NCBI RefSeq assembly: GCF_033095945.1 | Contig: NZ_AP026800.1 | Span: 558,001 to 622,000 of the forward strand | Origin: Bombiscardovia apis | GTDB lineage: Bacteria; Actinomycetota; Actinomycetes; Actinomycetales; Bifidobacteriaceae | Direction of reading: 5' to 3' | Length of the DNA stretch: 64,000 nucleotides | Shown here: one piece after another, positions 3,801 to 34,532 of the stretch | How positions within the stretch are numbered: the stretch's first letter is position 1 | How the letters are laid out: the number at the start of each line of letters is the position of its first letter | Notes under the pieces: model-generated | Told to the model about the DNA's origin: nothing | Databases searched by the model: none | Seen by the model: only the letters and a program-made list of their open reading frames with translations | Program-made: the position numbers and the translations under genes

Positions 3801-4339
3801 ACCACTGGTCAATAGGGTTGGTCTTAAAAGGCTGCCACGTATTCCGTCTTGGCGCTTACCCCAATGCCAAACCCGGCCTTGTTCGTCTAAAGCTAGCGAA
3901 AAATAGTTCCCTGCGCTCACCTGTGTGAAACGGACTCCAATGGGGATGAGTACTCGGATGGGAGATGACACGTTGGTGGTGTAACCAGTGCCCAACTGTC
4001 CTTGACCGTTGTATCCCCATGCGTAAGTGTTTCCATCTTGCGCAATTGCTAACGAGTGGGACTCCCCGGCGCTGATTTGAGTAAAGACAGGCGGTGCAGT
4101 AGAAGCTGGCGGGGGTAATGGTGGCGGTTGCGCTGGCGTTGGCTGGGCCTTTGGTAGGGGAGAGGGTGAAACCGTCTACGGTTTCGGAGCTTGGAGTGCC
4201 GCCGCGAGTGAGCTGGCTTAGGCTGTCGTCTTGGGCTGGGTCTGCGTGTGCAGGGGCCGCAAAATTAGCGGACCCCCCCCCCCAGGACAGTGAGAGCTAG
4301 CGCTAAGGCTACCGCGCTTGCTGTGCGAATGCTTCGCAT
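873..4339 (-). pseudogene. RCC1-repeat LPxAG surface protein (paralogue 1), frame-disrupted
   Basis: The start is ATG at 4339-4337 behind GGAGG, encoding a signal peptide that begins MRSIRTASAVALALALTVLGGG. The frame is broken twice. A G11 tract (4273-4283) inside the signal-peptide codons sends reading into TAA two codons later. A C5 run (4111-4115, coding strand) would need one base fewer to join the N-terminal segment to the propellers. With both corrected the product is about 1154 residues. It would hold a TIG-like strand, seven RCC1 blades (WGxNxxGQLG signatures), an InlB-type B-repeat, a second set of seven blades, a beta-sandwich-like segment and an LPAAG/hydrophobic/KKRR tail. The long open part (873-3995) has no ATG or GTG start upstream in frame. 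One change in the G tract cannot restore this gene, so it may be a locked-off copy, or the C5 run may be a sequencing error. The ligand is unknown. Confidence 0.8.
4273..4283 (-). repeat. G11 homopolymer in signal-peptide codons of RCC1 paralogue 1
   Basis: There are eleven C on the plus strand, giving G11 on the coding strand, within codons 19-23. With G11 the frame reads L-G-G-G-V-R-stop. With G10 it would read on into S-A-N-F-A-A-P and the conserved mature N-terminus. The tract sits at the same codon positions as those at 7877-7887 and 34466-34475. Confidence 0.9.
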
Positions 4340-4428
4340 TATTCCTCCAAACGGGCTGCAGCCGCCAAGTTCGCGACTACCCCGTGCATATATCCAAAAG
4401 TGTTCTGCTGCTTTGCCTGACCGACCCC

Positions 4429-4440
4429 GGTTCCCCAACC
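4429..4440. promoter_or_regulatory. Conserved 12-bp palindrome upstream of RCC1 paralogue 1
   Basis: The site is GGTTGGGGAACC on the coding (minus) strand, about 90 bp before the start codon. The same element lies at a similar distance before the other three RCC1 genes. It could be an operator, or part of a promoter, since GGAAC resembles ECF-sigma -35 elements. Confidence 0.55.
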
Positions 4441-4575
4441 GCAACCCCAACAAAGCCTCCATCTACGACCCAGTTTATCATCATCGCCTGAGAGGGGGAG
4501 TTTGAGCTTTACCTGCTTGTTATTGACGTGCGCACTTGCTTGCGGCGCCGGTGGGTTTGGGTGACTTGGTAGGCT

Positions 4576-4598
4576 GGCCCGGCTTTGGGGGCCGGGCC
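4576..4598 (-). terminator. GC-rich hairpin after RCC1 paralogue 2
   Basis: The arms are GGCCCGGC and GCCGGGCC-like around a short loop, about 12-30 bp past the stop codon at 4610. No clear U-run follows, so its strength as an intrinsic terminator is uncertain. Confidence 0.4.
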
Positions 4599-4609
4599 TT
4601 GGTGGGGAT

Positions 4610-7600
4610 TTAGTTGGTGGCTGTTGGGGTGTGCCGGGGTTGGGCTCGGCGTTTGCGGCTGAGCTGGTAGCCGGTCCAGGTTAGGGAGGCTAGGGCGCTG
4701 AGGCCTATGAGACTGCCGCCGCCCAAGCGTTGGAGGGGGATGGCTCCGGCTTGGGGGAGGGCGAAGTCGTAGTAGGTGAAGCCGGGGTTGATGGTGTAGT
4801 CGTCTTCGGGGCAGCCGGCTAGGCTCCATTTGATGGTGACTGGTACGGTGCCGACTGGGTGTGGTGGTGTGTTGAGTTTCCACTGGTTGTGTTCGGGGTC
4901 GTAGGTGCTGGTGGCGGTGTGTGTGGGGTCGCCGAAGAGTGTGTTGGTGATGTCTATTTTGAACGCTTTAACCGGCCCGAGCTCGGGGCGGAAGGTATTG
5001 GAACTTGGCGTACCATCCCCGAGTATGCCTAACTGGCGGCTGCCCCAGGCGAAGATGCGATGGTCATTACTGAGCACGTAACCTGACGAAGATCCTGCAT
5101 CGACTTGGATGATGGTGTCTGGTGTGTTTCCTGCGCTGATTCGTGTTGGTGTGGGTTGTTTGTAGTCAGGTTCTGTGCCGGCTATGTATCCCCAACCGTA
5201 TGCTTTATGGTCACTACCGAGGGCGAGAGAAGATTCACCTCCTGCGCTGATTTGGGTGACGGTGTCTGGCATGTTTCCGCCGGAAACTCTAGTAGGCAGG
5301 GGATTGGTATCATACATTCCCATGCCGGTGCTTTTGCCAAGCTGGCCGCTGGTGTTTCGTCCCCATGCGTAGACTTTACCGTCACTGCCAAGAGCAAGAG
5401 CATGGGAGATGCCGGCGTCGATTTGGGTGATGCTTGCGGGCAGGTCTCCACCAGTAATACGTCGAGGTACAGGTTGCGCGGTTCCAACTTCGGTGCTGCC
5501 AACCTGGCCCCTGTCGTTGTTGCCCCATGCGTAAACTTGGTGATCGCTGCCTAAAGCCATAGTAAACGAGTTTCCGGTGCTTATTTGTATGATATTTGTT
5601 GGAAGGGTGCCGCCTGTGATTCTAGTAGGTTGGCGAACGGGCATATTTATGCCTACTCCTGCATTAGTGCCCAGCTGTCCGAAGTAATTGCTGCCCCAGG
5701 CGTAAATCTTGTTGTCGCTTCCTAAAGCGAAAGATGATGATGATTGGTCATTGGAGTTGACTTGGAGAACTTCGGCTGGCAGACCGCTGTCTATCCTTTT
5801 GGGGAATGGAATGTTGGGGCTGGTATCTGCGGGCCAGCCTCCGATATTGGCACCCCAACTGTAAACGTGGTGGTCGTCTCCTAAGGCCAGAGCGTGCTGC
5901 CATCCGGCTGCTATTTGGATGAAGTGTACTCCAGCTGGCATTTTGACTCGTACTGGCATGGTTTCATATTCATTGGTGGAACCGGCCCCGAGCTGCTGAT
6001 AACGGTTGTATCCCCAGGCGTAGGTGTTACCATCGCTGGCGATAGCGTACGCAGTGCCAGCGCCTGCGCTGATTTGGGTGAAGCGTAGGCTGCTGGTTTC
6101 GGGTTGGGTGGTGATGGTGGCTGGCGTGTTGCCGTTTGCGTGGCCTCGGTCTGGTGTGAGTTGGAAGGTTCGCTCATCCCAATGGGCGGTCAGGGTTTGG
6201 TCGGTGGTGACGGGCATGCTTAAATCCTAGGGCGTGCCGTCTGCTGTGAACCAGCCGGTGAACTGGTGGCCGGTCCAAGTGGGGTTGGGGTTGGGCCATA
6301 CGAGGTTGCCGCCGTTGGGAATGGTTTGCGCGGCTGGCGTGGTGCCTGGTGCTCCTGCGAGGTTGAAGCGTACGGTAAACGAGTTCTTATACGTATACAC
6401 AATAGTGATAGGAGTTTGAACAATATCGTTCTTCGTCCAGGTAATTACCACGTTGACGCTGCCGATGGGGTGTTGGGGCACGTCGAATGACCACACGCCA
6501 GTAGCAGCATCTGCTTGATAGTTCGTAATAGGTGTGGAGCCAAAAGTGACGCTGGTGATAGCGAGCTGAGGGTCTGTAACTGCTATGGGTGTTACTTGCG
6601 TTAATACAGGAGATGCGGCGGTGTTGCCGAGTTGGCCGAATGCGTTGCTGCCCCAGCCGTAGACTTTCTGGTCGGTTCCTAAACCAAGATAGTGTGCTCG
6701 TCCGATACTGACCTGACTGAAGCTGCTTGGTTGTGCTCCTGCTGGCACTAGTGTCGGCGTACTAGAAGGGCTGCTATTGTTGTTGCCCCACGTGTAAGCT
6801 TGGTGGGCATCGTTGAGGGCTATAGAGCGGGACGAGCCCGCGCATATTTGGGTTATGGTTCCGGGTATGGCGTTGGCTGCTAGGGGGTGGGGTCTGGCTG
6901 TAGGGTCTGTGCCCACGTTGATGATTGGGCCGAGTTCTCCGTTGATATTGCTGCCCCAGGCATACACATAATTATCGCTGGTAAGGGCGAGGCTGTGACC
7001 GTAGCCGGCGCTGACTTGGGTGATGTTGTGTGGCAGGTAGTAGATTTGCTTTGGCCTGGTGGGGGATTGTAGGCTACCGTCGCCGAGCTGGCCGAATTGG
7101 TTATCTCCCCAAGCGTAGACAGCGCCACTACTATCGATAGCTAGCGAGTACCCTCTACCAAATTCACCTCCTGCACTGACTTGGGTAATTTTTGGATTGT
7201 AGGTAATGGTTTTCACTATTAAAGGGTCGGGGTGGGGTTGTGAGTCGCCGGTTGCTTGATCGTAGCCGAGTTCACCGCGCTCGTTACTGCCCCAAGCCAA
7301 GACTTCTTGCTTCATCGACACTGCTAGGGAGTGTGAGCCGCCCGCACTAATCTGGGTGATGTTGTCAAACATGTCACCAGCACGCACCGGCGTGGGCTCA
7401 GTAATAGGAGTGGTAGTACCAACGTTGGTGCTGCTGCCGGTCTGCCCGTAGAAGTTGTCTCCCCACGCATACAACCTATGATTACTAGCCAAAGCCAGAG
7501 CATGCCTTTCGCCGGCGCTGACTTGGGTGAAGGTAACACCATCGGGCGTTTTTACCAGAGTTGGGCGACTAGCTGAACCTCCGACCGTACCGTTACCAAG

Positions 7601-7943
7601 CTGACCGTGGTCGTTACGACCCCACGCATAAATATTGCCCTGAGTACTGATAGCCAGAGAGAAATTATGGCCTGCGCTGACCTGGGTGAACGTGATATTG
7701 CCTGGTGGCATTGGTGGCGTGACGGTGGCGGTGTTGGGTGCGTTGGCCGGGCCGGAGATGGGGGAGAGGGTGAAACCGTTGTTGGTTTCTGATTCTTGCG
7801 TTGATGGTATCGGCTGCGTGCCTGCGTTTGGGGTGGGGTTAGCGTGGACTGGTGTTGGGTGCGCTGAACTAGCGGACCCCCCCCCCCAGGACGGTCAAGG
7901 ACAGGAGCGCTGCTATAGCGCTCGCCGTGCGAATGTGTCGCAT
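4610..7943 (-). pseudogene. RCC1-repeat LPxAG surface protein (paralogue 2), phase-off with in-frame stop
   Basis: The start is ATG at 7943-7941 behind GGAGG, with a signal peptide beginning MRHIRTASAIAALLSLTVLGGG. A G11 tract (7877-7887) shifts the frame into a TAG at once. With G10 the signal peptide joins perfectly to the propeller frame. The first propeller has seven WGxN-type blades (about 6660-7650). It is followed by an InlB-type B-repeat in which a TAG (6227-6229) stands where the paralogues have the Trp of a WDF motif. The same frame then continues with a TIG-like segment, seven more blades and the LPQAG/hydrophobic/SRKRR tail. If both lesions were reversed, the product would be 1110 residues. 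Paralogues 3 and 4 show the expected intact order. Either this is a decaying gene, or it is phase-variable with an additional nonsense mutation. Confidence 0.85.
7877..7887 (-). repeat. G11 homopolymer in signal-peptide codons of RCC1 paralogue 2
   Basis: There are eleven C on the plus strand. As sequenced, the frame ends L-G-G-G-V-R-stop (OFF). One base fewer reads L-G-G-G-S-A-S-S-A and continues without a stop to 6227, so this tract alone gates the first half of the protein. Confidence 0.92.
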
Positions 7944-8034
7944 AACCCCTCCAAACGGGTGCTACCAGTGCTGGAAAGCACTCTACCCGCGCATAAACTC
8001 AAGAAACTTGCTTTGGGCGATACGCGGCGAATCT

Positions 8035-8046
8035 AGTTCCCCAACC
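8035..8046. promoter_or_regulatory. Conserved 12-bp palindrome upstream of RCC1 paralogue 2
   Basis: The coding strand reads GGTTGGGGAACT, one mismatch from the GGTTGGGGAACC found before the three other RCC1 genes. It lies about 92 bp before the ATG. The flanks TGAATC before and TTCGCCGC after also resemble those at 34629-34640. Confidence 0.5.
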
Positions 8047-8426
8047 GATTCAGACACGCTAACGCCCTTCTCATTTAAACCAAGTCTAGCATTACTGTCT
8101 GAGTGTGGGTATTCGACCAGTGTAAGTTAAATAGCGAAAGGGGCCTACAGGGAGTACTTCAGCGATTAGTTTGAGTCCTAGGATGTTGGCTTGCGTGATA
8201 GCTAATGTGCGCACATACGGGGATAGGCGCCAACTACATCGCCGACTTAACACCTCCAGGAACCTATGTGCACACATTTTGGCGTTTAACCCGGTTTCGA
8301 GGAGTACGAAGATGCCGACTCGATGGAGTCGGCATCTTGAAAGCAAAGACGAGACTCACCCCGTCCAGGTATGCTCCAGTCTAGCAAACATTTTCGTGAT
8401 TGTGAATACTGACATGCACGCGGTTT
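8047..8426. other. Non-coding stretch between RCC1 paralogue 2 and the Abi gene
   Basis: I see no convincing gene here. The reading frames present are short and have neither ribosome-binding sites nor recognisable motifs. The base composition falls towards AT compared with the surface genes. The only clear structure is the perfect hairpin at 8309-8338. Confidence 0.6.
8309..8338 (-). terminator. Perfect 13-bp hairpin downstream of the Abi gene
   Basis: AAGATGCCGACTC pairs perfectly with GAGTCGGCATCTT across a four-base loop. It lies about 90 bp after the stop of the minus-strand Abi gene. There is no U-run on either strand, so it may be a factor-assisted terminator or an RNA-stabilising structure. 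Confidence 0.5.
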
Positions 8427-9203
8427 TTAAGAGCTTGCTTCGAGCGTTTTGAAAGTTCGCGCGCTCCTACGCAAGGTTATTGTATCGATCCAGCCATGGG
8501 TTAAGCCGGTTTCAATGGATGACAGCAGTGACATAAGTGCGCCGATGATGCTGTTAATTTTGTATGCTTCTTCGAATAAGTTATCGAAGTGTGCTGCCCG
8601 ATTGCGAACACGACGAACATAATTCATGTTCTTTGCAATGTACATGCGGCCCTTTTCGGTCGGTTCTACGTTTGGGAAAGCCCTGTATAGAGCTATAGTC
8701 CATAGTATTTGTTGCTTTGCTGTCTTTTCACTAGTCGTAGCTTCGCCAATTAGCTTGACCCAAGACCCCCACATGAGGTGTGCGAGAATGTCATCATGGT
8801 TGACCGTTAGATCAACTCGATGATGGTGCGGCTCCTTCCATTTTCTGGCATCTTCAAGTGCCAGCTGACGGGCGTTCAGCAAATTCCCTCTGATCAACGC
8901 GTTCACTAATTGCGGCGCCTGTCCAGGAAGGCACCAATTGGGGTTCTTTAAGTTTTGTGCACACAAGTGGCGCAGTTCTCTGTCTATGGTATTACGAATA
9001 GCAATCTCTACGTAGCCTATTTGTGCTTGGAGCAGGCCCGCGAAGTCTTGGTTCCATTTGCATAAGCTGATAGCTTTTTGGTAGTCACCGTCGGTGCTTT
9101 TTAGGTATCGCTTGAATCGTGCCGCACTAAATAAGAGCTCTGCATAGTTGGCAGACGGATCGGGCTGTATGGGTGTAAAACCGTGACTTTCTTCTGAAGT
9201 CAT
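8427..9203 (-). CDS. Abi-like (AbiD/AbiF, Abi_2) HEPN-motif protein
   Basis: This is a 258-residue protein. It carries the marks of the Abi_2 family: an ..QIGYVEIAIRNTIDREL.. helix early in the protein, HLMWGSWVKL in the middle, and VRRVRNRAAHFDNLF towards the C-terminus. The last contains R-x4-H, the catalytic motif of HEPN ribonucleases. Family members are abortive-infection proteins that stop growth of phage-infected cells, probably by cleaving RNA; that role is inferred here. It stands alone in an AT-richer stretch between surface-protein genes and pepN, so it is probably acquired. No antitoxin partner is visible next to it. Confidence 0.82.
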   Translation of the reverse strand: MTSEESHGFTPIQPDPSANYAELLFSAARFKRYLKSTDGDYQKAISLCKWNQDFAGLLQAQIGYVEIAIRNTIDRELRHLCAQNLKNPNWCLPGQAPQLVNALIRGNLLNARQLALEDARKWKEPHHHRVDLTVNHDDILAHLMWGSWVKLIGEATTSEKTAKQQILWTIALYRAFPNVEPTEKGRMYIAKNMNYVRRVRNRAAHFDNLFEEAYKINSIIGALMSLLSSIETGLTHGWIDTITLRRSARTFKTLEASS

Positions 9204-9903
9204 CGCCGCCCTCCAAACTTTTTGCCGCGCGGATACCTGTAGGCCTGACTCTAGTGTTTTTGACTACCCAATTTTGGTGAAAACTAATAATGTGGGTAAC
9301 TCACCCAAGTTTCGCAGTTTTGTGCATAACTGAGACGAGTCGACATCGGCTACGGGTGAGCGCGATTCTGTACCTAGGACACAAGGGCTTCGCATACTCG
9401 CACAATCGTGATAGTAGGAAGCGCTGTAGTATTGATGCGGACTGGCAGTTGGGAACTTGCGCGCATTGGAAGCAGGTACTTGTTAGGAAGCAAAAAGAAA
9501 TGTTCTTTAGACGGAGTTGAATTCTTGGTTTGGTTATAGCAGGTCGAGCTTATGAGCGCGACGCTCTGCAAGGTGGAAGATAGTTCTTAATGCCGGGGGA
9601 ATGCCCCCGGCTCTTGGAGCCTTCCTTATTGCTAAGGGAAGCGTTTTTAATTATAGGTTGTTTGGTTGGACTAATCAACACTTAATGCTGACCGCGGTGA
9701 AGTGGCTGCTGGTCTTTTCTGCTTGCTGAGCTGATTGGGGCTCGCCAAGGGCGGGGGCGGCGTGGCTGGGGGGCAATTGCTTAGGGCTGCGGATAGAGTA
9801 GGGGGTATGAGTGCCTTTGCGGCGCGGGGCTGGCTGGATTGAGCTGGGCCGGGCGCGGGCGAGTGGGCACGTAGTGGAAAATACAGCAGAAAAGGACGCA
9901 AGA
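9204..9903. other. 700-bp intergenic region upstream of pepN
   Basis: No gene is supportable here. The longest open frame (76 codons, plus strand) has no ribosome-binding site and a composition unlike a protein. The left part is AT-rich and the last 200 bp are GC-rich. One perfect hairpin is present: GCCGGGGG (9592-9599), an AATG loop and CCCCCGGC (9604-9611), without a U-run. Confidence 0.5.
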
Positions 9904-12525
9904 ATGCCAGGAGCAAATCTGACTCGCGTGGAAGCTGAAGAGCGCGCGAGCATCATTTCCAACCCCAAGTACACGGTGAGCCTCGATCTGACTCGCGGCG
10001 CTAAGACCTTCGCTTCGGAAGTTGTAGTCACGTTCGACGCTGCTAAGCGCAATGCGGCGAGCTACCTCGATTTGATTGCCTCCCGCGTGGAATCGGTTGA
10101 GCTCAACGGCGTGGCCCTCGACCCGGCCGAGGTCTACCAAGACAATCGCATTATTCTCAAGGGTTTGAAGGCCCACAACGAGGTGAAGGTTGCTGCCCTG
10201 TGTGACTACTCCCGCACCGGCGAAGGCCTGCACCGCTCCGTGGATCCCTCCGACGGGCGCGTGTATTTGTACACCCAGTTCGAGGTGCCGGATGCTCGCC
10301 GCGTGTACGCAGTATTCGATCAGCCCGATTTGAAGGCCACGTTTGACTTCTCCGTAGTTGCTCCCGAATCGTGGACTGTCTTGGGCAATATGCCTACCAA
10401 GTCTTGCGAGGCAGTAGACCAGCAGACTGAGCGCGGCACCTTGGAGCAGGCTCCGGCCGAGGGCTGCAAGCGTTGGACCTTTGAAACCACGCCGATGATG
10501 AGCTCCTACTTAACCGCTATTTGCGCTGGCCCCTACGCTCAGTGGACCACCGAATATGCCAACGAAGACGGGCGCACTGTGCCCATGGGCCTCTACTGCC
10601 GTCAGTCTTTGAAGCCCGCTCTCGAAAAAGATGTGGACTATCTCTTCGACATCACCCAGAAGGGCTTCGCCTTCTATGCCAAGACCTGGGGCGTGCCTTA
10701 CCCTTACGCCAAGTACGACCAGATTTTCGTGCCCGAATACAACGCCGGCGCTATGGAAAACATTGGCTTGGTGACCTTCCGCGACCAGTACATCTTCGAG
10801 TCCAAGGCCACCGGTGCCAAGGTGAACCGCCGCGTGGAGACCGTCTTGCACGAGCTGGCTCACATGTGGTTCGGCGATTTGGTGACCATGAAGTGGTGGA
10901 ACGACCTGTGGCTCAACGAATCCTTCGCCGAGTTCATGTCGACTCTGTGCACGGCTGAGGCCACTGAATGGTCAGACGACTGGGCCACGTTCTGCATGGG
11001 GGAGAAGGGCTGGGCCCTGCGCGAGGACCAGCTGCCCACCACCCACCCGATTGTGGCTCCTATCAACGATTTGCACGATACCGAGGTGAACTTCGACGGC
11101 ATCACCTACGCCAAAGGCGCTTCCGTATTGAAGCAGCTGGTGGCTTACGTGGGCCGCGAGCAGTTCTTCCAGGGCATCCACAACTACTTGGAGAAGCATG
11201 CTTACTCCAACGCCACTTTGAAGGATTTGCTGACCGAGCTTGAGGCCACTTCCGGCCGCGACTTGGGCCAGTGGTCTAAGGTCTGGCTGCAAGAGTCGGG
11301 CATTAATACGCTCACCTCGCACGTTTCTACCGATGCAAACGGCGTTATTACCGCCATGTCTATCGAGCAGAGCGCTCCGGAAGAGTATCCGGTGCTGCGC
11401 CCCCACCGCCTGGCCATTGGCTTCTACTCGGCTCAGGCCGACGGTAGCGTAGCGCGCACCGACCGCTTCGAGGTCGACATTGACGGCGCATCCACTGAGA
11501 TTACCGAGCTGGTAGGCAAGCAGCGCCCCGACCTGATTTTGGTCAACGACGACGACTTGACCTACGCCAAGCTGCGTCTAGACGAGGCTTCGCTCAAGTT
11601 TGTGGAGGGCAACCTCTACCGCGTCGAGGACCGCCTGGCCCGCGCTATCGTCTCCCTAAGCATGTGGGATATGACGCGCGACGGTGTGTACCCGGCCCAG
11701 AGCTTCATCGATTACACTTTGCGCACGCTCTCCACCGAGCACCAGTCCACCAGCATGCGCTACATGCTCTCCTGCCTGTCTACCACGGCCCACGACTACA
11801 CGGCTCAGGCCACCCGCCCGGAGGCCCTAGAACAGGTAGCACAAGGCCTATGGAAGCTGGCTTCGGCTGCTGAGGCCGGCTCCGACGAGCAGCTTCAGCT
11901 CCTCCAGGCCTACCTGGGCTACGGCGACGACGAGGACTTCGAAGACCACGCCCGCGCCCTGCTGGCTGGCACGAGTGAGCTGGAAGGCGTAGAAGTCGAC
12001 AACAACATGCGCTGGGCAGTCATCCACGCTCTCGCCGCACAAAACATGGCTTCCGAGAGCGAAATCGAGGCCGAATTAAGCAAACGTGATACCACTGAGA
12101 ACCGTGAGTTCGCTATGGGTGCCCGCGCTGTGCGCCCCACTAAGGCAGCCAAGGCTTGGGCTTGGGATCAGGCCTTGCACAACAACGACCTGACCAACTC
12201 GCAAATCGAATCCGCGGCCGATGGCTTCTCGGGCTCGGGCAGCAAGGACCTCTTCGCTCCCTACATTGAGAAGTTCTTCAGCTCGGTGGACTGGGTCTGG
12301 GAGCACAAGACCTTCCACATTGCCGAGACCATCTTGAACCCGCTTTCCGCCGGCGGACTCTACCCCTACAAGGCTGAGCCCCACGACTTGGTTCACGCGG
12401 GCGAGGCTTGGCTGGCAGACCACGAAGATGCGCCCAAGGCCCTGCGCGGCATGATTATCCAGAATGTGGAAACTTCACGCCGCACCCTGCGCGTGCGCAA
12501 CTACAACGAGGGTTTGGCTCGCTAA
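9904..12525 (+). CDS. pepN: Aminopeptidase N (M1 family zinc metallopeptidase)
   Basis: This is an 873-residue cytoplasmic aminopeptidase that removes N-terminal residues from peptides. The M1 hallmarks are present: GAMEN at about residues 282-286, and HELAHMW followed by the second zinc-ligand Glu in LWLNESFAEF (HExxH at about 316-320). The length matches actinobacterial PepN, including the C-terminal ERAP-like helical domain. The frame stays open upstream to 9811. I chose ATG at 9904 because it follows AAAAGGACGCAAG and gives the usual N-terminus MPGANLTRVEAEERAS. A terminator-like hairpin follows at 12572-12611. Confidence 0.96.
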   Translation: MPGANLTRVEAEERASIISNPKYTVSLDLTRGAKTFASEVVVTFDAAKRNAASYLDLIASRVESVELNGVALDPAEVYQDNRIILKGLKAHNEVKVAALCDYSRTGEGLHRSVDPSDGRVYLYTQFEVPDARRVYAVFDQPDLKATFDFSVVAPESWTVLGNMPTKSCEAVDQQTERGTLEQAPAEGCKRWTFETTPMMSSYLTAICAGPYAQWTTEYANEDGRTVPMGLYCRQSLKPALEKDVDYLFDITQKGFAFYAKTWGVPYPYAKYDQIFVPEYNAGAMENIGLVTFRDQYIFESKATGAKVNRRVETVLHELAHMWFGDLVTMKWWNDLWLNESFAEFMSTLCTAEATEWSDDWATFCMGEKGWALREDQLPTTHPIVAPINDLHDTEVNFDGITYAKGASVLKQLVAYVGREQFFQGIHNYLEKHAYSNATLKDLLTELEATSGRDLGQWSKVWLQESGINTLTSHVSTDANGVITAMSIEQSAPEEYPVLRPHRLAIGFYSAQADGSVARTDRFEVDIDGASTEITELVGKQRPDLILVNDDDLTYAKLRLDEASLKFVEGNLYRVEDRLARAIVSLSMWDMTRDGVYPAQSFIDYTLRTLSTEHQSTSMRYMLSCLSTTAHDYTAQATRPEALEQVAQGLWKLASAAEAGSDEQLQLLQAYLGYGDDEDFEDHARALLAGTSELEGVEVDNNMRWAVIHALAAQNMASESEIEAELSKRDTTENREFAMGARAVRPTKAAKAWAWDQALHNNDLTNSQIESAADGFSGSGSKDLFAPYIEKFFSSVDWVWEHKTFHIAETILNPLSAGGLYPYKAEPHDLVHAGEAWLADHEDAPKALRGMIIQNVETSRRTLRVRNYNEGLAR

Positions 12526-12571
12526 AGCCATAGTGCGCCCCCATGTAGCATAGGCTCGCAGTAAGTATTAC

Positions 12572-12611
12572 AAGGCCCCGAGAAGCTGGAGTGAAGGCTT
12601 CGCGGGGCCTT
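12572..12611 (+). terminator. Terminator hairpin after pepN
   Basis: AAGGCCCCG (12572-12580) pairs with CGGGGCCTT (12603-12611), and an inner GAAGC/GCTTC stem extends it. The tail TGCCTATTCT is only moderately T-rich. Confidence 0.6.
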
Positions 12612-12707
12612 GCCTATTCTCCTATCCGAAAGCCGGGGCGGGTACTAAGCTGGTGCTGTATGCTTTTCGCGGGTCTCGGCCCGTTCGCGCGCAACATGAG
12701 GAGTGCA

Positions 12708-24623: not shown

Positions 24624-24652
24624 GAGGGCACCTGCCGAAGCGAGGTGCCCTC
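24624..24652 (-). terminator. Terminator hairpin after the MFS gene
   Basis: GAGGGCACCT and AGGTGCCCTC form a perfect 10-bp stem with a nine-base loop, 21 bp past the stop of the minus-strand MFS gene. No clear U-run follows. Confidence 0.6.
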
Positions 24653-24672
24653 ACAAGCGTTTTAGCTAGCGA

Positions 24673-26094: not shown

Positions 26095-26156
26095 AATTTC
26101 CTCTAATGCTAATAAAAGTGCGGGGAATAGGGGATAGGGGATAGGTGGGGGGGCGA

Positions 26157-27110
26157 TTAGCAGCTGGCTGCCAGGCCACTAATGCGGCCCATGAACTCTT
26201 GCAGGAAGCGGTCCTTGTCGACGCCTACGGCCACCTGGGTTGTCTTGACGGGATCGTTGAGGCGGTCCTTGTCTCCAATAGTGCGACCGCGAGTGGGCTC
26301 TTCTAGGTCAACTTTAAGATTGACTCCCAGCGTGGTGATGAGGCTGGGGTCGATGGCCACGGCAACTGCCAGCGGATCGTGCAGGCCGCAGCCGCCCAGC
26401 TGAGGGGCAGTCTTGGCGTAGGCGCGAATGTAGTAGTCGGTCATATCTGCCAAGAAGTCACCGGCCTTGGTGTGCAAGTCGCGCCATTGCTGGGTTTCCT
26501 TAGTGGTCAGAAGCGTTTGCAGAGTCACATCTAATCCAACCATCGTCACCTGTGCGCCCGACCTAAAGAGCGCATCTGCCGCCTCCGGGTCTTGCGAGAT
26601 GTTGGCTTCGCGCCAAGGGGCTACGTTGCCGCTCACGGTAAGCGCCCCGCCCATAATGACGATGTTGCCAATTTCGTTTATGATGCTCGGGTCGCGCTCA
26701 AAGGCGGCAGCAATATTGGTCATAGGGCCAGTTGCTACGTATATGAGGTCCTTGCCGTAGGTGTGTGCGGCGCGGATAATGAAGTCGACGCCGTTTTCCT
26801 CTTCCGGCTGGCGGGGTGAGGGGGCGATTTCAGCTTCGCCAACGCCGTTATCTCCGTGGATAAAAGCGGAGACCGGCAAGACTTCGAAGCTGTCTTTGGT
26901 GCTTGCATGGGGCAGGCCGGGGAATGCAGGCACTTCCTTGTGTCCGAAGAGATCGGTGACTGCTAAGTCGTTGTGCACGCCCTGCTCAAGTGTGACGTTG
27001 CCGTATGTGCCGGTGATGCCTATGAGCTCAACTTCTGGACTGCCGAGCGCATAAGCAATGGCTAGCGTGTCGTCAATTCCAGTGTCAAGGTCGAGGATGA
27101 GCTTGTACAT
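26157..27110 (-). CDS. Ribonucleoside hydrolase, IUNH family (module 1)
   Basis: This 317-residue enzyme splits N-glycosidic bonds of ribonucleosides to free base and ribose. The calcium-binding signature is LDLDTGIDDTLA at residues 5-16, followed by GITGTYGNV, ATGPMTNIAAAF, IVIMGGAL, NISQDPEAAD and a C-terminal LHDPLAVAVAI with the ligand Asp. Base preference is not predictable here. It is the first gene of an operon with the MFS gene, and ribokinase lies just beyond. A TGGTAA-(13)-TTACCA inverted repeat lies about 90 bp upstream. Confidence 0.93.
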   Translation of the reverse strand: MYKLILDLDTGIDDTLAIAYALGSPEVELIGITGTYGNVTLEQGVHNDLAVTDLFGHKEVPAFPGLPHASTKDSFEVLPVSAFIHGDNGVGEAEIAPSPRQPEEENGVDFIIRAAHTYGKDLIYVATGPMTNIAAAFERDPSIINEIGNIVIMGGALTVSGNVAPWREANISQDPEAADALFRSGAQVTMVGLDVTLQTLLTTKETQQWRDLHTKAGDFLADMTDYYIRAYAKTAPQLGGCGLHDPLAVAVAIDPSLITTLGVNLKVDLEEPTRGRTIGDKDRLNDPVKTTQVAVGVDKDRFLQEFMGRISGLAASC

Positions 27111-27201
27111 AGAATGCCTTTCATATAATTCCAGCGACGGAAAACCTCTTTAAGAGTAACAACCAAGTGTGATGGCAATGACTACTTTGTCGATACAAGG
27201 T

Positions 27202-27226
27202 TGGTAAAAGGTTTTATTGCTTACCA
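27202..27226. promoter_or_regulatory. Inverted repeat upstream of nucleoside hydrolase 1
   Basis: TGGTAA (27202-27207) and TTACCA (27221-27226) are separated by 13 AT-rich bases. It is a possible regulator site in the promoter region of the minus-strand operon. Confidence 0.3.
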
Positions 27227-27379
27227 TTACATAATAGACGTATCTGCACTGAGCGTCAAAATACGGTTCGGGAAATAGACAATTTCCTCCCGTGCACCGC
27301 CCCTAATCTTGCGTCGGGCATACATCGGAAATGAATGACATCGTGGCGTGTTAGGATAAGTCGGAACAAGCAACGATCC

Positions 27380-27586
27380 GTTATCAGCGGGGAGCTTCCG
27401 GAAGAACAGCACTTGAATCTTGCGAGTGCCTACTAGAACCGGCGGGCGGGGCCCGTATAGCCCCTTCAAGCGGTTGTGTTTGCTGGCAAGTTAGCAGCGC
27501 AACAAGCGAGGTGGTACCGCGCAGGTGAAGCAATTCGCCCCCGTCCTCGGCCTAGGAATGAGCCAACGAGTCTAGGAGCGTGTGCG
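27380..27586 (+). promoter_or_regulatory. T-box leader of ileS (probably translational)
   Basis: The leader carries the T-box sequence GCGAGGTGGTACCGCG (27506-27521), where TGGT can pair with the ACCA end of uncharged tRNA-Ile. It is followed by CGTCCTCGGCCTAGG (27540-27554). No terminator with U-run lies between the T-box and the gene. Instead CCTAG can pair with CTAGGAG just before the start, which is the translational (Shine-Dalgarno-masking) form known for actinobacterial ileS. The 5' limit and specifier loop are approximate. Confidence 0.82.
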
Positions 27587-30500
27587 GTGAGTCAATCAGC
27601 GAATGAACCCTTCAATCCCAACGAGCGGGCGCAATCTGTCTACCCCAAGGCAAGCGAGGGCGCCGCAAACAAGCAGGTGGGCCCCAGCCCCAGCTTCCCC
27701 CAGATGGAAGAGCAAGTCCTCAACTATTGGGATCAAGACGATACCTTCAACAAATCGGTAGAGCGCCGCGCCTCGGGAGACAACTCCAGCAATGAATTCG
27801 TCTTCTTTGACGGCCCTCCCTTTGCCAACGGATTGCCCCACTACGGCCACTTGCTCACCGGCTATGCCAAAGATGTGATTCCCCGCTATCAGACCATGAA
27901 AGGGCGCAAGGTCAAGCGCGTCTTTGGTTGGGATACCCACGGTCTGCCCGCCGAGCTTGAGGCCCAAAAGGAGCTGGGTATTGAGTCGGTAGACCAAATC
28001 GAGGCTATGGGCATCGAAAAGTTCAACGACGCCTGCCGCGCTTCGGTTTTGAAATACACCAGCGAGTGGAAGGACTACGTGCACCGCCAGGGTCGATGGG
28101 TGGACTTTGACCACGGCTACAAGACGCTCGACATCCCCTTCATGGAGTCGGTCATGTGGGCCTTCAAGCAGCTCTACGAGAAGGGCTTGGCCTACCAGGG
28201 CTACCGGGTGCTGCCTTACTGCCCCAAGGATCGCACGCCCCTTTCGGCCCACGAGCTGCGCATGGATGCCGATGTCTACCAAGACCGCCAAGATACCACC
28301 GTTTCCATGGCCGTGAAGCTGCGCGACGAAGAAGATGCCTACGCCGTTTTCTGGACCACGACTCCTTGGACGGTGCCCACCAACTTCGCTATCGTCGTTG
28401 GTGCCGACATCGATTACGTGGAAGTTCAGCCGGTCGAGGGCCAGTTCGCCGGTAAGAAGTTCTACTTGGGCAAGGCCCTCCTGCCTTCCTACGAGAAGGA
28501 ACTGGGCGAGGGCTACCAGATTGTGCGCGAGCTCAAGGGCTCCGACATGGTCGGCTGGCGCTACTGGCCCGTCTTCCCCTACTTCGCAGACGAAAGCGCG
28601 ACCGCTCAGGGCGCAGTGCCCGGCCCCAACGCTTATCAAATCTTTACCGCAGACTACGTAGACACCGCTGAAGGCACCGGACTTGTGCACCAGGCTCCCT
28701 ACGGCGAAGACGATATGAACACCCTCAACGCCCAAGGCATCAAGTCCACAGACGTACTCGACGAAGGCTGCCGCTTCACCGCTGCCTGCCCCGATTATGA
28801 GGGCGAATACGTCTTCGATGCCAACAAGCCGATTCTGCGCAACCTGCGTGATGGTAGCGGCCCCTTGGCAGCCATCCCTCAGGAGCGCCGGGCCCTACTC
28901 TTCCAAGAGAAGTCCTACGTGCACTCCTACCCTCACTGCTGGCGTTGCGGCACCCCGCTTATCTACAAGCCCGTCTCTTCTTGGTTCGTTTCCGTTACCA
29001 AGTTCAAAGACGAAATGCTTCAGCTCAACCAAGAAATTAACTGGATTCCCGACAACGTCAAAGAGGGCCAGTTTGGCAAGTGGCTGGCCAACGTGCGCGA
29101 CTGGTCCATCTCCCGTAACCGCTTCTGGGGCTCGCCCATCCCGGTGTGGGTGTCAGACAACCCTGCCTACCCGCGAGTAGACGTGTACGGCTCCCTCGAA
29201 GAGCTCCTGCGCGACTTTGGCGATTATCCGCGCGACGGCAAGGGCGAAATCAACATGCACCGCCCCTACATCGACAACCTGACCCGCCCCAATCCAGACG
29301 ACCCCACGGGCCAGTCCACAATGCGCCGCATCACCGACGTCATGGACTGCTGGTTCGAGTCCGGCTCTATGTCGTTTGCTCAATTCCACTATCCCTTTGA
29401 GAACAAGGAATATTTTGAGCAGCACTTCCCGGCTGACTACGTGGTGGAATACATCGGCCAGACCCGCGGCTGGTTCTACCTCCTGCATGTGATGGCCACG
29501 GCCCTCTTCCACAAGCCTGCTTTTGAAAACGTCATCTGCCACGGCATCGTGCTCGGCGACGACGGCCAGAAGATGAGCAAGCACCTACACAACTATCCAG
29601 ATGTGAACGAGGTCTTTAACGAGTACGGCTCCGACGCTATGCGCTGGTTCCTTATGAGTTCGCCCATCCTGCGCGGCGGCAATCTTATCGTGACCGCCAA
29701 AGGCATTCGCGACACCGTGCGCCAGGTGCTCCTACCTATCTGGTCGTCTTACTACTTCTACACCCTCTACGCCAACGCGGCCAATGGGGGAGCGGGCTAC
29801 GACGCTCACCGCCTTAGCCCCGAGGAAGTCGACGATCTCCCAGCTATGGACCGCTACCTGCTGGCAGCCACCCGCCGCCTTGTTGAGGGCTTGCAGCGCT
29901 CGCTCGACGATTTCGCTATCTCTGACGCCTGCGCCAAGGCCTCTGAGTTTATCGACCTGCTGACTAACTGGTACATTCGCAACAACCGAGACCGCTTCTG
30001 GTCCGAAGACGCGCGCGCCTTCGACACCCTCTACACGGTCTTGGAAGTCTTCTCTAGAGCCATTGCGCCCCTGGCTCCTATGGAGACCGAGGAGATTTGG
30101 CGAGGGCTTACCGGCGGCGAGTCAGTCCACCTTGAGGATTGGCCCTTCTTGACCGATGCTGCCACCGGTGAAAGCACCGAGCTCGGCTTGGTATTGCGCG
30201 ACGACCCGGCTCTGCTGGCGGCTATGGAGAAGGTACGCGAGATTGTCTCTTCCACGCTCTCCATGCGTAAAGCTGAGCAGATTCGCGTGCGCCAGCCCCT
30301 CTCCGAGCTCTCAGTCATTGTGGAAGACCCGCAGGCAGTAGCTGCTTACGAGGGTATCCTCAAGTCGGAGCTCAACGTGAAGTCTGTAGACTTCTCCACG
30401 CTTGAGCAGGCTCAGGAGCAGGGTCTGCGCATCTTGCAAGAGCTCAAGGTCAACGCTCGCGCGGCTGGCCCCAGGCTGGGCAAACAGGTCCAGTTCGCTA

Positions 30501-30940
30501 TCAAGGCATCCAAGACCGGCGCTTGGCACTTAGACGGCGGCACTCCGGTGGTGGAAACCCCTAACGGCGACATCGCCCTAGAGCCGAGCGAATACGAGCT
30601 GATAAACCGCGTAGAAGAGAGCCAGGCTGAGGGTAGTGATTCCAAGGCCTCAACCGCCCTCCCAACCGGCGGTTTCGTAATCCTCGACACCCAGCTCACG
30701 CCCGACTTGGAAGCCGAAGGCTACGCGCGAGACTTGATTCGCCTAGTCCAAGACGCCCGCAAGGCTGCCAACCTCGACATTGCCGACCGCATCGCGCTGT
30801 CTCTAACCTTGCCGGCCGCCGAGGCCCCCAAGGCCAGCCAGTTTGAGTCTCTGATTGCGTCCGAGACCTTGGCCAGCAGCGTGACCATCGAGTCCAGCGA
30901 CTCCGCCCAGGAGCCCCAGGTCCAGGTAACCAAGGCCTGA
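27587..30940 (+). CDS. ileS: Isoleucyl-tRNA synthetase
   Basis: This 1117-residue class I synthetase charges tRNA-Ile. The HIGH motif appears as HYGH (residues 85-88, within FANGLPHYGH) and KMSKS as KMSKH (about residue 662). The editing domain (with TTTPWTVPTNFA) and the anticodon-binding domain are complete, and the size fits the eukaryote-like IleRS type found in many Actinobacteria. GTG at 27587 follows TAGGAGCGTGTGCG; the frame is open to 27476, but that part is the T-box leader. Expression is predicted to rise when uncharged tRNA-Ile binds the leader. Confidence 0.96.
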   Translation: MSQSANEPFNPNERAQSVYPKASEGAANKQVGPSPSFPQMEEQVLNYWDQDDTFNKSVERRASGDNSSNEFVFFDGPPFANGLPHYGHLLTGYAKDVIPRYQTMKGRKVKRVFGWDTHGLPAELEAQKELGIESVDQIEAMGIEKFNDACRASVLKYTSEWKDYVHRQGRWVDFDHGYKTLDIPFMESVMWAFKQLYEKGLAYQGYRVLPYCPKDRTPLSAHELRMDADVYQDRQDTTVSMAVKLRDEEDAYAVFWTTTPWTVPTNFAIVVGADIDYVEVQPVEGQFAGKKFYLGKALLPSYEKELGEGYQIVRELKGSDMVGWRYWPVFPYFADESATAQGAVPGPNAYQIFTADYVDTAEGTGLVHQAPYGEDDMNTLNAQGIKSTDVLDEGCRFTAACPDYEGEYVFDANKPILRNLRDGSGPLAAIPQERRALLFQEKSYVHSYPHCWRCGTPLIYKPVSSWFVSVTKFKDEMLQLNQEINWIPDNVKEGQFGKWLANVRDWSISRNRFWGSPIPVWVSDNPAYPRVDVYGSLEELLRDFGDYPRDGKGEINMHRPYIDNLTRPNPDDPTGQSTMRRITDVMDCWFESGSMSFAQFHYPFENKEYFEQHFPADYVVEYIGQTRGWFYLLHVMATALFHKPAFENVICHGIVLGDDGQKMSKHLHNYPDVNEVFNEYGSDAMRWFLMSSPILRGGNLIVTAKGIRDTVRQVLLPIWSSYYFYTLYANAANGGAGYDAHRLSPEEVDDLPAMDRYLLAATRRLVEGLQRSLDDFAISDACAKASEFIDLLTNWYIRNNRDRFWSEDARAFDTLYTVLEVFSRAIAPLAPMETEEIWRGLTGGESVHLEDWPFLTDAATGESTELGLVLRDDPALLAAMEKVREIVSSTLSMRKAEQIRVRQPLSELSVIVEDPQAVAAYEGILKSELNVKSVDFSTLEQAQEQGLRILQELKVNARAAGPRLGKQVQFAIKASKTGAWHLDGGTPVVETPNGDIALEPSEYELINRVEESQAEGSDSKASTALPTGGFVILDTQLTPDLEAEGYARDLIRLVQDARKAANLDIADRIALSLTLPAAEAPKASQFESLIASETLASSVTIESSDSAQEPQVQVTKA

Positions 30941-30947
30941 TTCTCCC

Positions 30948-30995
30948 TAAACACCAGTGCCCCGCGGGTTTACGCTCGCGGGGCACTGGTGTTTA
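30948..30995 (+). terminator. Long perfect terminator hairpin after ileS
   Basis: A 19-bp perfect stem (30948-30966 with 30977-30995) has a ten-base loop. A G9 run follows instead of a U-run. Fifteen bases of the right arm (GCTCGCGGGGCACTG) recur at 34722-34736, on the other side of RCC1 paralogue 3. Confidence 0.75.
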
Positions 30996-31103
30996 GGGGG
31001 GGGGCAAAGCCGGCTATGGGGCGCTCCTCCGGTTGTGGTTGGGGAGCGCTGGTTTTGGTAGCCTGCTTTCCGCCGGGTGTCAGCGGGGCAATGGGTTAGC
31101 GGG

Positions 31104-34100
31104 TTAGTGGGCGGAGGTGGTGGTGTGTTTGGTTACTTTCAGCTGCTTGGCTGAGAACTGGTGGCCGGCGTAGGTTATGGCTGTCAGGGTTGACAACGCC
31201 AGCAGTGTGCCGCCGCCTAGGCGTTGGATGGGCAGCGCTCCGGCCTGGGGCAGGGTGAGGAAGGTGTAGTAGTCGTAGGGCAGGGGGTAGTCGGGTTGGG
31301 CGATGCCGCCTAGGGTCCAGTGGATGTTGGCGGTGACTCTGCCTTCGGGGTGGGCTGGAGCCGTTGTGTCCCAAGTGGGGTCGTTCCATGCGGGGGTCGG
31401 TGTGGCTTCGGTTTGGTCGAATTTGATGCCAGTGACGATGATCTGGGGGATGCCCACGGGCCCGGGCGTCCTGCGGTTGGTGGTGGTGCCGTTGCCGAGT
31501 TGGCCGTAGCTGTTGTTTCCCCAGCTGTAGGTGTGGTGGTCGCTGCCGATAATCAGGCCGTGATTGCCGCCTGCGCTGATGGTGGTCCAGGTGTTGGTGG
31601 GGTTGCCGCTGCTGGCCGGGTTGACGGGTGTGGGTGTGCTGCGGTTGGTGGTGGTGCCGTTGCCGAGTTGGCCGTAGTAGTTGTTTCCCCAGCTGTATGC
31701 GTGGTGGTCGCTGCTGATGGCGAGGCTGTGGCCCGCGCCTGTGCTGATGGTGGTCCAGGTGGTGTCTGGTTTGCCTGCTGGGTCCTTGACGGGTGTGGGT
31801 GTGCTGCGGTTGGTGGTGGTGCCGTCGCCCAGCTGGCCGTACTCGTTCCATCCCCAGCTGTATGCGTGGTGGTCGCTGCCGATGGCCAGGCTGTGATACT
31901 CGCCTGCGCTGATGGTGGTCCAGGTGTTGGTGGGGTTGCCGCTGCTGGCAGGGCTGACGGGCGTTGGCGTAGTCCGTCTGGTGGTGCCGTTGCCGAGTTG
32001 GCCGTAGTAGTTGTTTCCCCAGCTGTATGCGTGGTGGTCGCTGCTGATGGCGAGGCTGTGCCGGAGGCCTGCGCTGATGGTTGTCCAGGTGGTGTCTGGC
32101 TTGCCTGCTGGGTCCTTGACGGGTGTGGGTGTGCTGCGGTCGGTGGTGGTGGTGCCGTCGCCGAGTTGGCCGTAGTAGTTGTTTCCCCAGCTGTATGCGT
32201 GGTGGTCGCTGCTGATGGCGAGGTTGTGGCCCGCGCCTGCGCTGATGGTTGTCCAGGTGGTGTCTGGTTTGCCTGCTGGGTCCTTGACGGGTGTGGGTGT
32301 GCTGCGGTCGGTGGTGGTGCCGTCGCCCAGCTGGCCGTACCCGTTCCATCCCCAGCTGTAGACGTGGCCGTCGTCGCCGATGGCGAGACTGTGAAGGTCG
32401 CCTACGCTGATGTGGGTGAAGTGGACGCCGGCGGGTGTTTTCACGCGTACGGGCTGGCTGCGGTTGGTGGTGGTGCCGTCGCCCAGCTGACCGTCTTGGT
32501 TGTTGCCCCATGCGTAGGTGTTGCCGTCGGTGCCGATGGCGAGGCTGTGCTGGTCGCCTGCGCTAATTTGGGTGTAGGCGAAGACGGTGGTGGGGTCGGG
32601 TGGTGTGATGTGGATGGGGTTGCCGCCGGTGTCGGGGCCGGAGGTGGGGGAGAGTTTGAACTCCCATGCCTGCCAGGTGGCTTTCAATGTTTTGTTGCTG
32701 TTGATGGGTTGGGTGAAGTCCCATGGTTGGTTGGTGGTGGTGTCGGCCCAGCCGGTGAACCGGTGGTGCTCCCAGCTGGGGTCGGGGCTGGGCCAGTCGA
32801 TGGGCTGCGGGTCGTCCGAGTACACGAACTGGTCGCCTGGCAGCGCGCTACTGCTGTGCCCGGTAGCGTCGCCCAAGACAAACTTGACCTTGTAGGCGGT
32901 GGCGTAGGTGTAGTGGAGGGTGACGGTGCCGGTGTAGTAGTTGGGGTTGGTGACGTTGCCGTTGGGGCCGAGGGCGTCGATGTGGTAGTGGACCACGACG
33001 TTGGCTGGTCCCGCGCCGTGTAATGGCACGTGCATGTCCCAGGCGCCGGTTGTGGTATTGATGGTTTTCTGGCTGACGGACGTGCCGTCGAAGGTGACGG
33101 TGTCGATCACGTATTTGGCTGTTCGCACCTGTATGGGTGTGTTTTTGTCGGCGCTGTTGTCTGGCGGGTTGCCGGCACCGTTGGTGCCGTTGCCGAGTTG
33201 GCCCTCGGCGTTTCTTCCCCAGGTGTAGGCGTGGCCGTTGTCGGCGATGGCCGCGGTGTATGCTCCTCCCGCGCTGATTTGCGTGTAGTGGGCTCCGGGC
33301 GCGAGCTCGCCTTGACGTACCTTGATTGGCGTGGTGACGGTGGTCTCGGTGCCGTTGCCGAGTTGGCCCTGGGTGTTGTCTCCCCAGGTGTAGGCGTTGC
33401 CGTCGCTAGCGATGGCAACGGTGTGCGTTCCGTCCGCGCTGGTCTGGGTGTAGTGGGCTCCGGGTGTGAGCTCGCCTCGGCTGACTTTGACGGGTGTTTT
33501 GGCGATGGAGCCGTTGGTGCCGTTGCCCAGCTGTCCGTAGTCGTTTCTTCCCCAGGTGTAGGCGTTGTCGTCGCTGGCGATGGCTACGGTGTGGTTCGAG
33601 CCCGTGCTGACGCTGGTGTAGTGGGCTCCGGGTGTGAGCTCTCCAGCGCCGACCTGGCCGGGCGTGCTCTGGATGTTGCCGCTGGTGCCGTTGCCGAGCT
33701 CGCCGACGTAGTTGTCTCCCCAGGTGTAGGCGTTGTCGTCGCTGGCGATGGCCGCGGTGTGCATTCCTCCCGCGCTGATTTGTGTGTAGTGGGCTCCGGG
33801 TGTGAGCCCTCCTTGGCTGACTTTGCCGGGCGCGCTGGTGTTTCCTCCTCTGGTGCCGTTGCCCAGCTGGCCGGCGTTGTTCGCTCCCCAGGTGTAGGCG
33901 TTGTCGTCGCTGGCGATGGCGGCGTTGTGGTAATCGCCGGCGCTGATTTGTGTGTAGTGGGCTCCGGGTGCGAGCTCGCCTTGGCTGACTTTGACGGGTG
34001 TGGGGGCGTTGGGGCCGCTGGTGCCGTTGCCGAGTTGGCCTTGGGTGTTGTTTCCCCAGGTGTAGGCGTACCCGTCGTCGCCGATGGCCAGGCTGTGCCC

Positions 34101-34532
34101 GCCGCCTGCGCTGATCTGGGTGAAGCGTACACCCACGGGCGTATGGACGCGTACTGGCAGGTTGCGATTGGTGGTGGTGCCGTCGCCCAGCTGACCGTCT
34201 TGGTTGTTGCCCCATGCGTAGGTGTTGCCGTCTGAGCCTATGGCCAGGCTGTGTCCGCTGCGTGAGCTGATCCGGGTGAAGTAGACGCCGCTTGGCGGGG
34301 CGGGAGGTGTGATGGTGGCTGTGGCGTCGGCGTTGGCGGGGCCTTTGGTGGGGGAGAGGGTGAATCCGTTTACGGTTTCAGAAGTTTGCTGGTTGCCGCG
34401 TGTGAGCTGGCTGGAGGGGGTGTTTGGGGTTGGTTCAGCGTGGGCTGAGGTCGTGAGACCGATTGCCCCCCCCCCAAGGACAGTCATGGCTAGTGTCACG
34501 ATAGTGGCGCTAGCAGCTCGCAGACTACGCAT
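31104..34532 (-). CDS. RCC1-repeat LPxAG surface protein (paralogue 3), in frame
   Basis: This is a 1142-residue protein. The ATG at 34532 follows GGAGGGAAATA and opens a signal peptide (MRSLRAASATIVTLAMTVLGGG) that includes a G10 tract at codons 19-23, read in frame here. The mature part has a TIG-like strand (FTLSPTKGPAN), then seven RCC1 blades with TWGxNxxGQLGN signatures. A beta-sandwich-like segment and an InlB-type B-repeat (FTGWADTTTNQPWDFTQPI..NKTLKATW) follow, then a second TIG-like strand, seven more blades, and a LPQAG/hydrophobic/basic tail (about 1094-1142). Propellers of this kind bind proteins or glycans, but the ligand is unknown. Several C-terminal blades are almost identical. 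An earlier frame start at 34601 is unlikely. Confidence 0.87.
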   Translation of the reverse strand: MRSLRAASATIVTLAMTVLGGGAIGLTTSAHAEPTPNTPSSQLTRGNQQTSETVNGFTLSPTKGPANADATATITPPAPPSGVYFTRISSRSGHSLAIGSDGNTYAWGNNQDGQLGDGTTTNRNLPVRVHTPVGVRFTQISAGGGHSLAIGDDGYAYTWGNNTQGQLGNGTSGPNAPTPVKVSQGELAPGAHYTQISAGDYHNAAIASDDNAYTWGANNAGQLGNGTRGGNTSAPGKVSQGGLTPGAHYTQISAGGMHTAAIASDDNAYTWGDNYVGELGNGTSGNIQSTPGQVGAGELTPGAHYTSVSTGSNHTVAIASDDNAYTWGRNDYGQLGNGTNGSIAKTPVKVSRGELTPGAHYTQTSADGTHTVAIASDGNAYTWGDNTQGQLGNGTETTVTTPIKVRQGELAPGAHYTQISAGGAYTAAIADNGHAYTWGRNAEGQLGNGTNGAGNPPDNSADKNTPIQVRTAKYVIDTVTFDGTSVSQKTINTTTGAWDMHVPLHGAGPANVVVHYHIDALGPNGNVTNPNYYTGTVTLHYTYATAYKVKFVLGDATGHSSSALPGDQFVYSDDPQPIDWPSPDPSWEHHRFTGWADTTTNQPWDFTQPINSNKTLKATWQAWEFKLSPTSGPDTGGNPIHITPPDPTTVFAYTQISAGDQHSLAIGTDGNTYAWGNNQDGQLGDGTTTNRSQPVRVKTPAGVHFTHISVGDLHSLAIGDDGHVYSWGWNGYGQLGDGTTTDRSTPTPVKDPAGKPDTTWTTISAGAGHNLAISSDHHAYSWGNNYYGQLGDGTTTTDRSTPTPVKDPAGKPDTTWTTISAGLRHSLAISSDHHAYSWGNNYYGQLGNGTTRRTTPTPVSPASSGNPTNTWTTISAGEYHSLAIGSDHHAYSWGWNEYGQLGDGTTTNRSTPTPVKDPAGKPDTTWTTISTGAGHSLAISSDHHAYSWGNNYYGQLGNGTTTNRSTPTPVNPASSGNPTNTWTTISAGGNHGLIIGSDHHTYSWGNNSYGQLGNGTTTNRRTPGPVGIPQIIVTGIKFDQTEATPTPAWNDPTWDTTAPAHPEGRVTANIHWTLGGIAQPDYPLPYDYYTFLTLPQAGALPIQRLGGGTLLALSTLTAITYAGHQFSAKQLKVTKHTTTSAH
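31588..32330 (-). repeat. Near-identical tandem blades in RCC1 paralogue 3
   Basis: Units of about 165 bp, each one RCC1 blade, repeat with few differences through the C-terminal propeller. The segment encoding SSDHHAYSWGNNYYGQLG occurs at about 31660-31733, 31988-32060 and 32155-32228. This points to recent intragenic duplication or conversion. It is a coding repeat, not a CRISPR array. Confidence 0.8.
34466..34475 (-). repeat. G10 homopolymer in signal-peptide codons of RCC1 paralogue 3
   Basis: Ten C on the plus strand keep the signal peptide in frame with the mature protein (L-G-G-G-A-I-G). One base more would give the same early-stop arrangement seen in paralogues 1 and 2, if the same logic holds. 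Confidence 0.9.

Follow-up and report, generated by a model that had tools for sequence, protein, structure and literature searches.

Forty genes in the genome of Bombiscardovia apis (1,937,113 bases, single contig) carry a run of G's inside the same signal-peptide sequence, and the length of this run sets whether the reading frame continues into the mature protein. It is probable (about 0.73) that these genes constitute a repertoire of contingency genes, which are switched by slipped-strand phase variation at the G-run of this cassette. As proposed here, the cassette would comprise a start site, the n- and h-region of a signal peptide and about ten G's encoding LGGG at the end of the h-region, and would be common to about 40 genes for wall-sorted surface proteins. 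We infer that slipped-strand errors at the run occur in living cells during replication, by which one G would be gained or lost. In one frame class the ribosome would pass through the signal peptide, and the mature protein would be expressed, exported, cut and anchored; in the other frames a stop after 23-44 codons would leave the cell without the surface protein. The run is located in the portion expected to be cleaved off by signal peptidase (cleavage placed by eye, AxA motifs), so that changes of 3 nt would leave the mature protein unchanged and identical in every ON length. Such switching may serve to vary adhesion or recognition in the bee gut.

Tracts and RCC1 genes of the window

The window, i.e. 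the whole stretch of 64,000 nucleotides that was analysed, contains three G/C runs of at least 10 nt, namely C11 at 4273-4283, C11 at 7877-7887 and C10 at 34466-34475 on the plus strand. On the coding strand of three minus-strand genes (A, B and C, starting at 4339, 7943 and 34532) they read as G11, G11 and G10. Each of these genes has a GGAGG site preceding the ATG and encodes a signal peptide of the type MRxxRxAS...LTVLGGG, in which the run occupies codons 19-22, with its onset 56-57 nt from the A of that start codon. A run scan of the window thus recovered the tract lengths and positions given in the first-pass annotation, as well as the shared signal-peptide codons. Its reading of the frames was likewise reproduced: as assembled, G10 of gene C leads into the mature protein (1142 aa), and G11 of genes A and B is followed by V-R-stop. 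The features are as follows.

31104-34532, minus strand: gene C, encoding an RCC1 surface protein of 1142 aa that is in frame as assembled; signal peptide MRSLRAASATIVTLAMTVLGGGAIGLTTSAHA, 14 RCC1 stretches
34466-34475, minus strand: G10 tract in the signal peptide of gene C
34539-34543, minus strand: GGAGG ribosome-binding site of gene C
31107-31253, minus strand: sorting-signal-like C-terminal end of gene C (LPQAG, hydrophobic stretch, basic tail)
4610-7943, minus strand: gene B, encoding an RCC1 surface protein, with the frame lost at the tract and a further interruption by an in-frame TAG
7877-7887, minus strand: G11 tract in the signal peptide of gene B
7948-7952, minus strand: GGAGG ribosome-binding site of gene B
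6227-6229, minus strand: TAG within gene B, with the mature-protein frame on either side
873-4339, minus strand: gene A, RCC1 surface protein gene, frame lost twice, at the tract and about 170 nt further downstream
4273-4283, minus strand: G11 tract in the signal peptide of gene A
4344-4348, minus strand: GGAGG ribosome-binding site of gene A
about 4088-4110, minus strand: second frame break of gene A, where similarity to paralogues switches frame (tblastn, five query proteins)
34747-38181, minus strand: gene D, tract-free RCC1 paralogue, readable, related signal peptide MRRYRTLCAILILLSLVGVGCG
38116-38127, minus strand: site of gene D matching the tract position, GTA GGT TGT GGT, no homopolymer

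RCC1 repeats in propeller-like arrays score above the Pfam cut-off in genes A, C and D and in both pieces of gene B. The Flg_new (InlB) repeat of Pfam is above cut-off in genes A and D, reaches 25.3 versus 27 bits in the first piece of gene B and is not reported for gene C. All four proteins end in LPQAG or LPAAG in place of the canonical LPxTG motif, followed by a hydrophobic stretch and a basic tail, and these predicted ends resemble those of wall-sorted proteins. Gene D matches the profile of the cassette over residues 1-16 (E 0.045); having no homopolymer, it would not be switchable by tract length.

The separate TAG that had been described for gene B is present in the same frame. The second frame break of gene A was absent from the first-pass annotation. 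Because genes A and B carry these further lesions, neither is simply an intact gene switched OFF, and the ON and OFF states originally assigned to the three window genes are not supported in that form, the more so as the lengths may be off by one base. Gene C appears to be the only intact switch within the window. Two G9 runs are located between genes, one at 30996-31004, just past an inverted repeat behind ileS, and one at 38653-38661, beside a C7 run and upstream of gene D.

A signal-peptide cassette across the genome and in relatives

The B. apis genome contains 80 G/C runs of at least 9 nt, versus about 13 expected when an order-2 Markov model of the window is scaled to the genome. For runs of at least 10 nt, the same model predicts 0.13 per 64 kb, versus the three seen. 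Chance or base composition as the origin of the runs was rejected, as the Markov counts lie far below those seen. In the sequence examined around the 80 places, 81 runs of at least 8 nt were identified, 40 of which are located within a cassette signal peptide (MRxxR...LGGG), with the onset of the run 56-62 nt from the start. Only two lengths occur among these 40 genes, G11 (n = 32) and G10 (n = 8). As assembled, nine genes are in frame and 31 are out of frame; translation of the latter ends after 23-44 codons. The mature parts comprise 29 RCC1 proteins and, based on Pfam, ten LRR/internalin-like proteins, nine of which also match Flg_new (InlB-type), and one protein with InlB-type (Flg_new) repeats only. 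One signal-peptide cassette therefore serves unrelated mature folds.

GGG makes up 8.1% of the 3359 glycine codons in the mature parts of these genes. Given this rarity, three consecutive GGG codons at one place in 40 genes constitute a feature at the DNA level and not at the protein level. Two tract-free B. nodaiensis paralogues (543392 and 1683648) encode LGGG by mixed codons, as CTA GGA GGT GGA or CTG GGA GGT GGG, which indicates that the protein does not need the run. A protein-level need for LGGG was rejected on both grounds.

A second design, with C11 in the signal peptide, was found in four large genes (242216, 246585, 384168 and 729204), all out of frame as read and with less certain start codons. 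Two of these match LRR/Flg_new in Pfam, one of them also RCC1, and two remained without a match in the 830 residues searched. Elsewhere in B. apis, a nearly identical sequence occurs twice (839723-839746 and 863149, about 23.4 kb apart), and its run differs between the two places, G10 versus G11. One RCC1 gene has a copy close to each of them (at 841-842 kb and 864-865 kb, respectively).

A profile built from the 22 residues of the cassette has matches in four of 27 genomes of the genus: 39 in B. apis, 29 in Bombiscardovia nodaiensis, eight in Bifidobacterium xylocopae and seven in Bifidobacterium actinocoloniiforme, a few of which are tract-free signal peptides. RCC1 proteins resembling that of gene C are present in 22 of the 27 genomes. 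The family is hence more widespread than the cassette, which is absent from 23 of the 27. Bombiscardovia coagulans, for instance, has RCC1 genes and no match to the 22-residue profile. The claim that tract length sets the frame extends to a recurrent design, counted in 40 genes of B. apis, 27 of B. nodaiensis, six of B. actinocoloniiforme and seven loci of B. xylocopae, and each of these four species has both readable and stopped members. The tracts are G10 in 26 of the 27 B. nodaiensis genes, 20 of which are in frame. Those of B. actinocoloniiforme comprise four times G11, one G12 and one G13, with two of six genes in frame. The seven B. xylocopae loci range from G12 to G14 and three stop soon after the run. 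These counts cover seven of the eight B. xylocopae matches and leave out B. nodaiensis 1049354 (stop before the run) and B. actinocoloniiforme 518654 (GTG start), neither of which is a signal peptide. B. apis and B. nodaiensis originate from the same bee species. The G+C content of the stretches examined here is 53.2%, versus 53.9% given for B. apis KimH in PMC10433979.

When the named relatives were searched for synteny of the ileS-RCC1 neighbourhood, RCC1 motifs were detected at none of 80 loci; two unrelated long G-runs were flagged. A B. xylocopae database protein starts in another frame (MRGASTHPPRGGGGLQ...) because its annotated start was placed before the out-of-frame run, a warning that start sites in genes of this kind can be called wrongly by automatic annotation.

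Selection, tract lengths and alternative explanations

In 36 of the 40 genes, the frame beyond the run is open either throughout the sequence examined (mostly about 830 codons) or as far as a sorting-signal end of its own. This includes 27 of the 31 out-of-frame genes, the exceptions being A, B, 696470 and 1522798. Pairwise dN/dS values (NG86) were calculated against the best B. nodaiensis match, many pairs being paralogues near saturation, and amount to 0.16-0.42 for the out-of-frame genes (27 of 31 computable) and 0.17-0.49 for the in-frame genes (seven of nine); dS was saturated for the remaining four and two genes, respectively. For seven reciprocal-best pairs (64-91% identical), with the B. 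apis member out of frame and the B. nodaiensis member in frame, dN/dS is 0.16-0.32. As dN/dS is equally low in out-of-frame and in-frame genes, most out-of-frame genes are not dead, and selection acts on proteins that cannot be made from the assembled lengths. It is very improbable that the out-of-frame genes are pseudogenes left by turnover within a large family. The four exceptions, with their further breaks or early ends, would fit such decay, but the open mature frames of the other 27 and a dN/dS no higher than that of the in-frame genes led us to reject it for most genes. Purifying selection does not by itself separate switching from non-standard decoding or from wrong lengths.

Homopolymer length is the weak point of PacBio sequencing. 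The lengths are uniform per genome (G11 in 32 of 40 genes of B. apis, G10 in 26 of 27 of B. nodaiensis), more so than expected of independent switching. For both B. nodaiensis (Kim37-2) and B. apis (KimH), PMC10433979 gives PacBio Sequel or RSII as the platform and HGAP/CANU as the assemblers, and states that the raw reads are public (DRA013792, DRA013793); its accessible sections do not mention short-read polishing. The genome analysed here is perhaps PacBio-derived as well. Considering this origin and the uniform lengths, single ON or OFF calls are unsafe, and the switchable design is to be trusted far more than any single tract state. An assembly artefact, in which the true lengths are one off, the majority of genes are in frame and homopolymer consensus error created the mixed states, would account for the species-wide uniformity and for the equal length of nine of 11 within-assembly pairs with similar flanks. 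However, no constant shift brings all 40 genes in frame, since nine are in frame as assembled, 26 with one G fewer and five with one more. Two of the 11 pairs do differ in length: 797104 (G10, in frame) and 807785 (G11, out of frame), with flanks 91% identical upstream and 93% downstream, and 461214 and 691615, with 95% and 80%, respectively. Two B. xylocopae loci also differ, with G12 and G13 ahead of the same downstream sequence (by eye). An artefact moreover leaves the upkeep of the run unexplained, given the rarity of GGG and the mixed codons in sister genes, and we regard it as unlikely. Between B. apis and B. nodaiensis, 10 of 12 pairs with similar flanks differ in length. A search of database proteins for one gene in both ON and OFF form within a species returned no pair.

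Non-standard decoding would also explain why selection preserves the out-of-frame genes. If programmed RNA polymerase slippage (or ribosomal frameshifting) yielded some full-length protein from every length, the tract would set a level instead of acting as a genetic switch, and uniform lengths per genome would fit a maintained slippage site. Against this, PMC9187656 describes pili of Bifidobacterium breve in in-frame constructs and not in the parent, with the transcript dropping after the early stop; by analogy, this speaks indirectly against such decoding in B. apis, which we regard as improbable.

The first-pass annotation knew of no such switching for RCC1 proteins in Bifidobacteriaceae. 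This stands: no earlier report of RCC1 phase variation in bifidobacteria or bee-gut Bifidobacterium was found in the literature seen, with most subscription journals outside the search. Poly-G switching of surface proteins in Bifidobacteriaceae, however, has already been published (PMC9187656, PMC11287997). The closest system (PMC9187656) comprises the sortase-dependent pili of B. breve UCC2003 (bbr_0113 and bbr_1889), a member of the same family, with an early G10-G11 tract, a Sec signal before it, an LPXTG-bearing mature part after it and an early stop when out of frame. In culture, the G11 tract was present as 37% G11, 59% G12 and 3% G10, with G10 reaching about 30% in mice, and the second tract was steadier (93.4% G10, 6.5% G9). 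Within-culture variation has thus been demonstrated in B. breve, whereas switching in B. apis is proposed from the sequence. B. breve has two pilus clusters with a dedicated sortase, in contrast to about 40 dispersed RCC1/LRR genes in B. apis, where the run lies inside a signal peptide common to all and the mature domains are RCC1, LRR and Flg_new. Gardnerella, also of the Bifidobacteriaceae, has many surface-protein genes with tracts of at least 8, one of which was 9 or 10 in sister colonies; about 70% of its G/C tracts are located upstream of genes, however, and neither a shared signal-peptide cassette nor an RCC1 family is mentioned in the parts of PMC11287997 available. The RCC1 proteins of honeybee bifidobacteria (PMC4449606), found also in B. 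actinocoloniiforme, belong to the same protein family, with many paralogues and a wall-anchoring C-terminus. They carry a Flg_new domain upstream of each RCC1 domain, which has counterparts above cut-off in genes A and D of the window. A word search of that text gave neither phase variation nor homopolymers. The mechanism is hence known in Bifidobacteriaceae, and the scale, the shared cassette and the RCC1/LRR targets appear to be new. If slipped-strand switching holds, a bee-gut symbiont would possess a large slippage-switched surface set, built by repeating one signal-peptide module that is exported and then discarded. It would offer an accessible non-pathogen for studying how combinatorial surface variation serves colonisation, phage avoidance or host recognition.

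Replication orientation

The dnaA gene is located at 793 in B. apis, 976 in B. nodaiensis and 1398707 in B. actinocoloniiforme. In the first two, GC skew (examined parts outside large repeat genes) flips sign near the point opposite dnaA; the terminus of B. actinocoloniiforme was assumed to lie opposite dnaA. All 73 signal-peptide G-run genes are oriented head-on to the replication fork (40 of 40 in B. apis, 27 of 27 in B. nodaiensis and six of six in B. actinocoloniiforme). The other long runs of B. apis are unbiased, with 19 of 34 on the same strand by hand count, leaving out 994491 (too near the terminus) and five places of the poly-C class. In five single-contig control relatives without a cassette match, again with the terminus assumed opposite dnaA, all RCC1 genes among the matches listed (of 238) are head-on as well. 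The orientation is therefore a property of the RCC1 family, which weakens head-on orientation as a property of the tract.

The poly-C genes are co-directional in seven of eight cases in B. apis and B. nodaiensis, with weaker gene calls, which places their G-run on the same replication strand as in the head-on poly-G genes. None were found in B. actinocoloniiforme. A broader, tentative view, which we consider possible but doubtful, is that the cassette, spread over unrelated folds, forms a genome-wide switchboard by which cells would differ in which of the roughly 40 propeller and LRR proteins they display, with the G-run kept in one fork orientation that may help to set the switching rate. Faster evolution has been proposed for head-on genes (PMC6220195, in the parts accessible), and the B. 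apis repertoire, if switched as proposed, would also allow one to ask whether head-on orientation tunes slippage.

Co-directional exceptions among RCC1 genes are the B. apis poly-C gene at 246.6-251.9 kb and B. nodaiensis 274438. The orientation of the RCC1 surface genes flips between the two replichores. Among the non-RCC1 ORFs of at least 200 aa in the window, chosen among overlapping ORFs and counted by hand, 18 are co-directional and 14 head-on.
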